Shown piece after piece: positions 53,707 to 61,867 of a DNA stretch of 64,000 nucleotides. The first letter of the stretch is position 1; each line of letters opens with the position of its first letter. Source of the stretch: [Mycobacterium] crassicus (GTDB taxonomy: Bacteria > Actinomycetota > Actinomycetes > Mycobacteriales > Mycobacteriaceae); the NCBI RefSeq assembly GCF_020181615.1, contig NZ_CP084029.1, positions 3,452,790 to 3,516,789 of the forward strand, read 5' to 3'. The notes under the pieces were generated by a model. That model had not been told where the DNA came from. It made no database searches and worked only from the letters and a program-made list of their open reading frames with translations. A program made the translations under genes and the position numbers.

Positions 53707-53740
53707 TGCAACAGTGCTGCAACGTGGTGATTCGTATCTT
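53707..53740 (+). promoter_or_regulatory. acs promoter with TGCAAC direct repeat
   Basis: TGCAAC (53707-53712), 5 nt, TGCAACG (53718-53724), 10 nt, then TATCTT (53735-53740) as a -10 box. The direct repeats are one helical turn apart and cover the -35 zone. The same arrangement, with the same 10-bp spacing and nearly the same distance to the start codon, precedes the aldehyde dehydrogenase gene at 61834-61867. Confidence 0.7.
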
Positions 53741-53779
53741 GGCGGCGACCGCCACACCATGCAGGTAGGGAGCAGCACC

Positions 53780-55699
53780 GTGACCGTGATCGACACCGAG
53801 ATCGACGCCGTTCTTGACGTCGCCGTCGCCGAGGCCGATCCGTTCGGTTTCTGGGCGGCTCAGGCCCGCCGGCTGGAGTGGGACACCGACTTCACCCAGG
53901 TACTCGACTACACCGACGCCCCGTTCGCCCGCTGGTTCGCCGACGGACGGCTCAACGTTGCCCACAACTGTATCGACCGCCACGTCGCCGCCGGCCACGG
54001 CGACCGCATCGCCATCCACTGGGAGGGCGAACCCGGCGATCACCGCGCCATCAGCTACGCCGACTTGCAGGCCGACGTCTCCCGCGCAGCCAACGCCCTG
54101 ACCACCCTGGGCCTGGTCGCCGGGGACCGAGTGGCGATCTACCTGCCGATGATCCCCGAAGCCATCATCGCCATGCTGGCCTGCGCCCGCCTCGGCGTGC
54201 TGCACACCGTGGTGTTCGGCGGCTTCGCCGCACACGCACTGCGCGACCGGATCAACGACGCAGCCGCCAAACTCGTCATCACCTCTGACGGCCAATACCG
54301 CCGCGGGGTCGCCGCCGCCCTCAAACCCGCCGTCGACGAAGCCTTGAGCACCGCCCCCGAAGAAAGCACCGTGGCCCACGTCCTGGTGGTGCGCCGCACC
54401 GGCGGCGACGTCGCCTGGACGCAAGACCGCGACCTGTGGTGGCACGACGTCATGGCAACCGCCGCCCCGCAACACACCCCCGAGGCCTTCCCCGCCGAAC
54501 AGCCACTGTTTCTGCTCTACACCTCCGGCACCACCGGAAAACCGAAGGGCATCGTGCACACCTGCGGCGGCTACCTCACCCAGGCCGCTTACACCCACCA
54601 GGTGATCTTCGACCTCAAACCCGAATCGGACATCTTCTGGTGCACCGCCGACATCGGCTGGGTCACCGGGCACACCTACGCCGTCTACGGTCCGCTGGCT
54701 AACGGCGCCACCCAGGTGATCTACGAGGGCACCCCCGAGTTCCCGAACCAGCATCGGCATTTTGAGATCATCGAAAAGTACGGCGTGACAATCTATTACA
54801 CCGCGCCGACGCTGATCCGCACGTTCATGAAATGGGGCGCCGAGGTGCCCGATGCCCACGATCTGACCAGTCTGCGGCTGCTCGGTTCGGTCGGCGAGCC
54901 GATCAACCCGGAGGCCTGGCGCTGGTATCGCCAGGTGATCGGCGCCGATACCGTGCCGGTCGTCGACACCTGGTGGCAGACCGAGACCGGCGCCGCCATG
55001 ATCAGCCCGCTACCCGGGATCGCCGCGGCCAAACCGGGTGCGGCGATGACCCCGCTGCCGGGTATCTCGGCAATGATCGTCGACGACGACGGCAACCGCC
55101 TCCCCGCTGCCGAGGGGGCTGAGTCGGTGGCGGGCTACCTGGTGGTCGATCAGCCGTGGCCGGCGATGGCTCGCGGCATCTGGGGTGATCGACAGCGGTT
55201 CATCGACACCTACTGGTCGCGGTTTGCCGAGCAGGGCTGGTATTTCGCCGGGGACGGCGCCCGCTACGACGCCGACGGCGACATCTGGGTGCTGGGCCGA
55301 GTCGATGACGTGATGAATGTGGCCGGGCACCGCATCTCCACCGCTGAGGTGGAGTCGGCGCTGGTGGGCCACCCCGCGGTCGCCGAGGCCGCCGTGGTGG
55401 GTGCCGCGGACGAGCAGACCGGTCAGAGCATCTGCGCGTTCGTGGTCATGGCCAAGAGCTACAGCGACTCGTTCGACGTCGACGACGCGATCGTCGGCGA
55501 CCTGCGGACGCGCGTGGCCGCCGAGATCTCCCCGATCGCCAAACCCCGCATGGTGCATGTGGTTCCGGAGCTGCCGAAGACCCGCAGCGGTAAGATCATG
55601 CGCCGGCTGCTGCGTGACGTCGCCGAGGGCCGCGAGCTCGGTGACACCTCGACATTGGTCGACCCGAGTGTCTTCGAAGCGATCCGGACCGGTCGATAG
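53780..55699 (+). CDS. acs: Acetyl-CoA synthetase (AMP-forming)
   Basis: 639-residue acyl-CoA synthetase making acetyl-CoA from acetate, ATP and CoA. P-loop YTSGTTGKPKG, WCTADIGWVTGHTY, the acetate-pocket motif DTWWQTETG, hinge GRVDDVMNVAGHRIST and the catalytic, acetylation-controlled lysine in PKTRSGKIMRRLL are present. GTG 53780 has GTAGGGAG eight bases upstream; ATG 53759 is an alternative adding seven residues. The promoter carries the TGCAAC repeat shared with the aldehyde dehydrogenase gene. Propionate could also be used. Confidence 0.92.
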   Translation: MTVIDTEIDAVLDVAVAEADPFGFWAAQARRLEWDTDFTQVLDYTDAPFARWFADGRLNVAHNCIDRHVAAGHGDRIAIHWEGEPGDHRAISYADLQADVSRAANALTTLGLVAGDRVAIYLPMIPEAIIAMLACARLGVLHTVVFGGFAAHALRDRINDAAAKLVITSDGQYRRGVAAALKPAVDEALSTAPEESTVAHVLVVRRTGGDVAWTQDRDLWWHDVMATAAPQHTPEAFPAEQPLFLLYTSGTTGKPKGIVHTCGGYLTQAAYTHQVIFDLKPESDIFWCTADIGWVTGHTYAVYGPLANGATQVIYEGTPEFPNQHRHFEIIEKYGVTIYYTAPTLIRTFMKWGAEVPDAHDLTSLRLLGSVGEPINPEAWRWYRQVIGADTVPVVDTWWQTETGAAMISPLPGIAAAKPGAAMTPLPGISAMIVDDDGNRLPAAEGAESVAGYLVVDQPWPAMARGIWGDRQRFIDTYWSRFAEQGWYFAGDGARYDADGDIWVLGRVDDVMNVAGHRISTAEVESALVGHPAVAEAAVVGAADEQTGQSICAFVVMAKSYSDSFDVDDAIVGDLRTRVAAEISPIAKPRMVHVVPELPKTRSGKIMRRLLRDVAEGRELGDTSTLVDPSVFEAIRTGR

Positions 55700-55784
55700 C
55701 CACACGCGGTCAGGTAGGCGCAGACTGAAGCCACGCCGCCGAGCTTCAGTGGTCAGCGGCAACCAGCCCAACGAAAGGTCGCCG

Positions 55785-60222: not shown

Positions 60223-60269
60223 CGTACGTTCCTATCTTCGAGGGTGGTTTCCTTCAGTTGGGTTGCGGC

Positions 60270-61793
60270 TCAGAAGAATCCCTGGGCGCTGGTGGAGTAG
60301 GACACCAGCAGGTTCTTGGTCTGCTGGTAATGGTCGAGCATCATCTTGTGGTTCTCCCGGCCGATGCCGGACTGCTTGTAGCCGCCGAACGCGGCGTGCG
60401 CCGGGTAGGCGTGATAGTTGTTCACCCATACCCGGCCGGCCTGGATGTCGCGGCCGGCCCGGTGGGCGGTGTTGCCGTCGCGGCTCCACACCCCGGCGCC
60501 CAGGCCATACAGCGTGTCGTTGGCCTTTGCGATGGCGTCTTGGTAGTCGCGGAATGAGGTGACCGCGAGGACCGGGCCGAAGATCTCCTCCTGAAAGATC
60601 CGCATCTTGTTATGGCCGGTGAAGACGGTCGGCTGCATGTAGTACCCGCCGGACAGCTCCCCACCGAGGTCGGCGCGCTGTCCGCCGGCGATGATCGTGG
60701 CGCCCTCGTCCTTGCCGATCTCGATGTAGGACAGGATCTTCTCCAACTGGTCGTTGGAGGCCTGCGCCCCGATCATGGTCGCGGTGTCCAGCGGGTCGCC
60801 TTGCCGGATCGCCTTGGTGCGGATCGTGGCCAGGTGCAGGAACTCGTCGTAGATGTCGTCCTGAACCAACGCCCGCGATGGGCAGGTGCAGACCTCACCC
60901 TGATTGAGGGCGAACATCGCGAAGCCCTCCAGCGTCTTGTCGCGGAAGTCGTCGTCGGCTGCCAACACGTCGGAGAAGAAGATGTTCGGGCTCTTGCCGC
61001 CCAACTCCAGCGTGACGGGGATCAGGTTCTGGCTGGCGTACTGCATGATCAGGCGCCCGGTGGTGGTCTCTCCGGTGAACGCCACCTTGGCGATCCGGTT
61101 CGAGGACGCCAACGGCTTACCGGCCTCGGCGCCGAATCCGTTGACCACGTTGAGCACCCCGGGCGGCAGCAGGTCGCCGATCAGGCTCATCAGGTACAGG
61201 ATCGAGGCCGGGGTCTGCTCGGCCGGTTTGAGCACCACCGCGTTGCCGGCCGCCAGCGCGGGCGCCAGCTTCCAGGTGGCCATCAGGATCGGGAAGTTCC
61301 ACGGGATGATCTGGCCCACCACCCCCAGCGGCTCGTGAAAGTGATAGGCGACGGTGTCCTGGTCGATCTGACTGAGCGCACCCTCTTGGGCGCGGATCGC
61401 CGCTGCGAAATAGCGGAAGTGGTCGACCGCGAGCGGCAGGTCGGCGTTCAGGGTCTCCCGGATCGGTTTGCCGTTATCCCACGACTCGGCCACCGCGAGC
61501 GCCTCGAGATGCTGCTCCATCCGATCGGCGATCTGGTTCAGCACCTTCGCCCGTTGGGCCGGGGAAGCCTTGCCCCAGGCCGGTGCCGCCGCGTGCGCGG
61601 CGTCCAGCGCCCTGTCGATATCGGCCGCGGTGGAGCGGGCGACCTCGCAAAACACCTGACCGGTCACCGGGGTGCGGTTCTCGAAATAGTCGCCGCTGAT
61701 CGGCGGCACCCACTGGCCGCCGATGAAGTTGTCGTAGCGCGACGGGAACGACATCAGTGAGCCTTCGGCGCCGGGTTGGCGATAGACCGCCAT
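60270..61793 (-). CDS. Acetaldehyde dehydrogenase (AldB/ExaC-type ALDH)
   Basis: 507-residue NAD(P)-dependent aldehyde dehydrogenase. Catalytic Glu in [13 protein letters not shown], catalytic Cys in [12 protein letters not shown] (typical of the bacterial acetaldehyde type), Asn in [10 protein letters not shown] and Rossmann [11 protein letters not shown]. It oxidises acetaldehyde to acetate. ATG 61793 has a perfect AGGAGGAA upstream. Its promoter (61834-61867) shares the TGCAAC repeat and spacing with acs. Confidence 0.94.
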
Positions 61794-61833
61794 AATTCCT
61801 CCTCATGTGCGAACTGTGGCTGCGATCACACAC

Positions 61834-61867
61834 AAGGTAGGGCTGGTCGCGTTGCATCACCGTTGCA
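61834..61867 (-). promoter_or_regulatory. aldh promoter with TGCAAC direct repeat
   Basis: On the minus strand: TGCAAC (61867-61862), GGTGA, TGCAACG (61856-61850), 10 nt, TACCTT -10 box (61839-61834). The element ends 56 bp before the ATG, against 55 bp for the copy before acs. 16 of the 18 repeat-region positions (TGCAAC-N5-TGCAACG) are identical between the two. Confidence 0.7.

Follow-up and report, generated by a model that had tools for sequence, protein, structure and literature searches.

Direct-repeat operators and a predicted GAF-SARP regulator at the ethanol and acetate locus of a Mycobacterium-type actinobacterium

The stretch of DNA analyzed here (64,000 nucleotides of contig NZ_CP084029.1, hereafter the window) comes from a complete, single-contig genome of 4.87 Mb, whose host is judged, going by its named relatives, to be a Mycobacterium-type actinobacterium. 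It contains an acetate and alcohol locus at 49.5-63 kb. A regulator encoded there (57797-59107, minus strand, 436 residues), which combines a DhaR-like GAF sensor with a predicted SARP-type output, probably acts as a SARP-type activator that controls, via TGCAAC direct repeats, a regulon leading from ethanol and acetaldehyde to acetyl-CoA. Sites, spacing, gene order, co-occurrence, and conservation were taken from the sequence and the two-part fold from a structure model; the repeats were assigned to the regulator from co-occurrence together with repeat geometry. Among the matches listed, no description of the regulon or of the GAF-SARP domain combination was found in the open-licence PMC literature, and the sources name homologs of the regulator only as GAF, helix-turn-helix, transcriptional regulator, or hypothetical protein. 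What is proposed is a concrete operator, protein, and register for a regulator family so far named only generically.

Operator sites and promoter geometry

The operator of acs (53707-53724, plus strand) consists of direct repeats TGCAAC at 53707-53712 and 53718-53723, followed by G at 53724, with the putative -10 box TATCTT at 53735-53740 on the same strand. The gene itself (53780-55699, plus strand) encodes an acetate--CoA ligase (TIGR02188, above the NCBIfam cut-off) and is a second copy, the core acs being elsewhere in the genome. The operator of the acetaldehyde dehydrogenase gene exaC (60270-61793, minus strand, ATG at 61793; equivalog NF050026, above cut-off) lies at 61850-61867 on the minus strand, with repeats at 61867-61862 and 61856-61851, G at 61850, and the putative -10 box TACCTT at 61834-61839 (minus strand). 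An earlier, sequence-only reading of this DNA had reported TGCAAC-N5-TGCAACG plus a -10 box at both promoters, and both read as it claimed. The repeat offset (11 bp) and the gap from TGCAACG to the -10 box (10 bp), computed by script, are identical at the two sites, as that reading had also held. Its one-base difference in distance to the start codon is likewise found, at 40 bp (acs) versus 41 bp (exaC) after the last -10 base, given GTG 53780 as the acs start; an in-frame ATG 21 bp upstream of this GTG is a possible alternative start.

If the -10 box occupies positions -12 to -7, the repeats begin at -40 and -29 and overlap the -35 zone at both promoters, neither of which has a -35 box evident by eye. 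Direct repeats at an 11-bp offset over the -35 zone, a SARP-family feature, are thus present at both sites. The available text of PMC10936776 gives SARP sites as direct repeats spaced 11 or 22 bp and places the upstream AfsR repeat at -40 to -30. The arrangement had earlier been called typical of an activator, and this can be sharpened to the SARP arrangement, with 11-bp direct repeats at -40 and -29 and a SARP domain predicted in the C-terminal half of the regulator.

The complete genome has exactly two copies of TGCAACN5TGCAACG, those at acs and exaC, whereas 0.08 copies are expected from the base composition of the window. The proposal that the shared architecture defines a probable C2 (two-carbon) regulon is supported, with the limit that the exact regulon of the source genome, as read from the sequence, is these two window promoters only. 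Looser matching gives no excess: at up to 2 mismatches, the window contains 6 matches against 3.9 expected, and 18 of 100 shuffles reach 6, so only near-exact motif matches are meaningful. With 1 mismatch, the whole genome has 8 places, six of which are neither exact site; among these six is the opposite-strand reading of the exaC site. A match with 1 mismatch also lies at window position 13070.

Across 61 relatives, the exact pattern was found at 21 places in 15 genomes, compared with 7 for the reversed control. Fifteen of these places lie within 10 kb of a regulator homolog and 6 do not, one of the latter being the propionate--CoA ligase-like promoter of genome G034 (L088). Exact matches in G012, G028, and G045, where no regulator homolog was found, and those in G018 and at one place in G052, away from the homolog, have no target tied to C2 metabolism and were treated as chance; in G012, G028, and G018 these unlinked matches also lack a -10 box at the expected distance. 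Another match (G019:C55:163340) precedes a gene that resembles secY by reading of its translation, without a profile, and is probably chance as well.

The strict pattern TGCAACN5TGCAACGN10TANCTT was counted in 297 genus genomes drawn evenly from a larger group. All 24 matches (23 genomes) directly precede exaC (21) or acs (3), and the control gave 0; the pattern is narrow and misses many holders of the regulator, so that it measures specificity and not reach.

Co-occurrence and conservation of regulator and motif

The distribution of the motif was compared with that of the regulator in 37 same-genus genomes including the source genome, 29 of which were used in the holder counts. Those left out are G003, G005, G008, and G025 (completeness 70-84), G032 (93, 400 contigs), G014 and G015 (distant homolog only), and G002, a complete genome with neither regulator nor exaC at cut-off; none of the eight has a match to the exact or the strict motif pattern. 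GCAACN5TGCAACN11TANNNT was found in 13 of the 14 regulator holders (19 places) and in none of the 15 non-holders (Fisher p 2e-7), with the reversed control absent from all 29. The 14th holder, G031, has the repeats with one extra base before the -10 box. This split makes the GAF protein, the obvious candidate of the sequence-only reading, the best candidate for the controller.

The core acs promoter, which is unlinked to the regulator, follows the same split, a variant site CAACN5TGCAAC with a degenerate first repeat being present in 10/14 holders and 0/15 non-holders (control 0); since the pattern was derived from promoters already inspected, only the split between holders and non-holders counts as a test. 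On an acs tree of 27 relatives and the source genome, which does not include genomes for which no acs was fetched (G033 among them), the holder label requires 8 changes, at least 6 of them forced, and is only weakly clustered (57 of 500 shuffles are as low).

The sequence-only reading would have been refuted if orthologous promoters lacked the motif, and this was put to the test: among 30 exaC copies with fetched flanks the motif is present at 12/12 regulator-linked copies, where the repeats lie without mismatch 67-94 bp upstream, and at 0/18 others, which have at least 3 mismatches. The close relatives G174 and G316 hold the whole locus except the CoA-transferase. Both of their promoters retain the repeats and the -10 box, with C in place of the final G of the motif at exaC; conservation in these promoters extends well beyond the operator, so that the comparison adds little by itself.

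A wider set of named regulator loci, the best 80 of 580 relatives, spans Mycolicibacterium, Tsukamurella, Nocardia, Rhodococcus, Streptomyces, Cellulomonas, Cellulosimicrobium, Aeromicrobium, Nocardioides, and others. The exaC start was accepted at no less than 70% identity and 200 bits with a match beginning at residue 1-3, which 11 of the 80 named loci fail; 69 named and 20 unnamed loci together gave 89 exaC upstream regions, of which 88 are distinct (two loci are identical, and another seven pairs reach 95% similarity or more). The repeats occur with at most 1 mismatch in 79 of the 88 distinct sequences. In 73 of these 79 sites TANNNT follows TGCAAC by exactly 11 bp, so that the -10 box at equal spacing is kept upstream of exaC in other genera. 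The TA...T columns, which were unselected, carry about 1.6 bits each, whereas the conservation of the repeats is inflated by selection on them. Half-site permutations were found upstream of exaC in a mean of 0.64 of the 89 loci (179 permutations); the highest counts, 36 (CTGCAA) and 30 (CAACGT), are explicable as the TGCAAC repeat itself read in a shifted register. At one locus (L071, G009 C1:4719378-4720612) the regulator homolog is in two overlapping pieces, through a broken frame or a sequencing error, and the motif before exaC is intact.

Regulator architecture, proposed activation, and rival explanations

Among named homologs of the regulator, that of Mycolicibacter acidiphilus is the closest (86% identity). 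The translation begins at ATG 59107, with an alternative in-frame TTG upstream at 59137, and a Pfam scan at E 0.001 detects GAF only. In the structure model, the N-terminal half matches DhaR, to whose type there is also a partial profile match below cut-off, and the C-terminal half matches both EmbR and the SARP domain of AfsR; the latter half is predicted to be a SARP module with an OmpR-type winged helix and BTAD-like helices. A DhaR-type sensor fused to a SARP output would be, to our knowledge, a new arrangement of two known parts. Compared with AfsR and other Streptomyces SARPs, the sensor is N-terminal and not behind the SARP domain, the targets belong to primary C2 metabolism, and the repeat is TGCAAC; the position of AfsR T88 is alanine, and the C-terminal half is shorter (about 200 residues). 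The regulator shares the DhaR-type GAF sensor with DhaR and AcoR and differs from them by lacking, in Pfam, the AAA+ sigma-54 domain and the Fis-type helix-turn-helix, its modeled output being SARP-like. It resembles EmbR of Mycobacterium in the modeled C-terminal half, whereas EmbR carries an FHA domain and is not known to have a GAF sensor.

A second GAF family (L234, L243, L245, L250; further matches L244-L253) is 36-41% identical in the sensor part. This paralogous family was considered as a partner of the motif and rejected, as in some genomes it neighbors another exaC copy, or acs in the case of L244, without the TGCAAC motif. The nearly invariant Cys180 of the GAF domain suggested covalent aldehyde sensing, but the cysteine occurs in the three paralogs inspected and is no specific evidence.

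From these features we infer binding, activation, co-transcription, and inducer as follows. The GAF sensor would respond to its signal, most likely a short-chain aldehyde or a metabolite closely tied to one, and two adjacent protomers would occupy the pair of 11-bp direct repeats at -40 and -29. Like AfsR, the bound regulator would retain RNA polymerase at promoters that have a -10 box and no evident -35 box; SARPs activate through contacts with sigma region 4 and polymerase. The exaC-adhP-regulator operon would be switched on, converting ethanol to acetaldehyde and acetate, and, as a later gene of this operon, the regulator would feed back positively on its own expression; acs-scpC would be switched on in parallel, taking acetate to acetyl-CoA.

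Several observations weigh against this proposal. The distance from the end of TGCAACG to the -10 box is 10 bp versus the 8 bp quoted for SARP sites in the available text of PMC10936776, a figure that depends on where the repeat is taken to end. Among family members, Trans_reg_C is matched weakly (16 of 21, best E 0.0011) and the BTAD profile is not matched; hhalign of alignments against SARPs is weak (E 0.007-0.015), and a phmmer search of PDB with the C-terminal half alone gave no match. Proof of the SARP domain from sequence by profiles, hhalign, and phmmer thus failed, and the assignment is made because of the structural match. No core acs site is seen in 4/14 holders: the source genome (G000), G031, and G035 lack one, and G033 yielded no core acs at cut-off. 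The source genome has three exaC and two acs copies at the cut-offs used, and at up to 2 mismatches the motif is confined to the copies in the window, exaC at C1:585689 and C1:1961248 and the core acs at C1:4369450 being without it (L235, L236, L242). Of four tested loci from other genomes in which acs immediately precedes the regulator, three have no site before acs. Eight of the 88 distinct exaC upstream regions have 2 mismatches and one (L082) has 3, and some regulator loci have no close exaC. Phylogenetically independent pairs are few, with 5 in the same direction, 0 opposite, and 1 tie for the exaC-type site (p 0.06) and 4, 0, and 3 for the core acs site (p 0.125); they are consistent in direction and too few to decide alone.

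The overlap of the repeats with the -35 place, where a bound protein could block polymerase, also suits a repressor that is released by an inducer. We regard this as unlikely, since the predicted output module is SARP-like and SARPs are known activators according to the available text of PMC10936776; moreover, inspection by eye shows no evident -35 box, and a constant 11-bp distance to the -10 box, seen in 73/79 distinct sites, fits polymerase contact better than simple blocking. It is somewhat less likely still that another protein or an alternative sigma factor, inherited with the exaC locus, reads the repeats while the GAF-SARP protein does something else. Linkage of exaC to the regulator and common inheritance could alone produce part of the co-occurrence, but the unlinked core acs sites also track the regulator, the changes of holder state on the acs tree suggest that the pairing was kept through several gains or losses, and the repeat geometry fits the predicted output domain.

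Recognition of the motif by an acetate regulator of the RamB/ScfR family, which the sequence-only reading had offered as its alternative, is now disfavored and seems very improbable. In corynebacteria acetate genes are controlled by RamB, and the source genome has a member of the family, but PF09856 is found in 29/29 genomes, including all 15 without the motif, whereas the motif is found in 13/29; the known RamB site is TTTGCAAA-like and not a TGCAAC direct repeat.

If the regulator is indeed the proposed activator, alcohol oxidation and acetate activation would stand under one control, and the SARP mode of activation would be placed at the center of carbon metabolism and not only in antibiotic clusters. 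SARPs are known mainly from the latter. A broader reading, possible although we lean slightly against it, is that sensor-first SARPs with DhaR-type N-termini form an old, general switch of primary metabolism across actinobacteria, whose GAF domain senses short-chain aldehydes directly and whose single TGCAAC operator activates enzymes that make, oxidize, and CoA-activate C2/C3 compounds (exaC, adhP, acs, and genes for the propionate--CoA ligase-like protein, diol dehydratase, and molybdenum-type aldehyde dehydrogenase). Such a class would be a metabolic counterpart of the antibiotic-cluster SARPs, from Streptomyces to Mycobacterium.

Further predicted targets and the surrounding locus

Thirteen of the 19 places in holders precede exaC and 1 precedes the window acs. 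The others are before an acyl-CoA ligase gene (best match propionate--CoA ligase, below that cut-off; above an acetate--CoA ligase cut-off), before two LuxR-type genes that diverge from the gene for a diol dehydratase small subunit (identified by profile in L064, by resemblance in L068), at one likely chance position, and at a contig end in a sequence resembling the core acs promoter. The diol dehydratase small subunit is above the NCBIfam cut-off.

Paired, outward-facing motifs lie between the diol dehydratase small-subunit gene and the LuxR-type gene in loci that also hold a regulator homolog (L064 1791, 2632; L068 17321, 18075; L103 6755, 7772; L106 1939, 2717; L119 2107, 2887), the former gene being profiled in L064 and identified by resemblance elsewhere, the latter profiled in L064 and L103. 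The LuxR-type gene of L064 is fused to a CysG-like methyltransferase. Exact repeats at L075 8524 (minus strand) and L167 10503 (plus strand), near regulator homologs, are located upstream of a gene for the 2Fe-2S subunit of a molybdenum-type aldehyde dehydrogenase, whose best profile matches are below cut-off; no exaC was seen within the fetched stretch of either locus. Behind the variant site of the core acs promoters (L279-L288), GTGA-N6-TCAC overlies the -10 box. This sequence resembles a Crp site, and the core acs may be under both regulator and Crp control.

Taken from sequence, the content of the regulon appears to center on short-chain aldehydes. A homolog of the regulator (P0112) is named 'uncharacterized 47.3 kDa protein in thcA 5'region', after the Rhodococcus thcA locus, and in R. 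erythropolis NBRC 15567 (L130) the regulator is followed by the motif (1 mismatch) and then exaC. The aldehyde dehydrogenase gene of the Rhodococcus locus comes after the regulator, whereas in the window the regulator follows exaC and adhP, and acs is added. Because of this naming and context, ThcA is probably the exaC ortholog. The available text of PMC12915292 describes ThcA of R. erythropolis NI86/21 as an aldehyde dehydrogenase induced by ethanolamine, atrazine, and EPTC. All three could yield short-chain aldehydes, and these inducers together with the aldehyde-centered regulon make an aldehyde inducer plausible; the regulon, if real, would explain the inducibility of Rhodococcus ThcA.

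The remaining genes of the locus include pta-ack (49530-52768, minus strand) and a gene for a ScpC-like succinyl-CoA:acetate CoA-transferase (55806-57302, plus strand), which, by gene order, is probably co-transcribed with acs. The latter lies between acs and the regulator here and was not found there in G174 and G316 (L313, L314), which keep the rest of the locus. The zinc alcohol dehydrogenase gene adhP (59158-60222, minus strand; above the NCBIfam cut-off) separates exaC from the regulator, all three being on one strand. About 140 bp before exaC, and also on its strand, a class V aminotransferase gene ends (61934-63061, minus strand); the exaC promoter sits in the short gap behind this gene, so that read-through is possible. 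On the 3' side of the regulator, a small coiled-coil gene (57309-57755, minus strand) is possibly the last gene of the exaC operon; it contains a 33-bp unit repeated 6 times at 57406-57602 (95% match), which encodes an 11-residue coiled-coil-like repeat.

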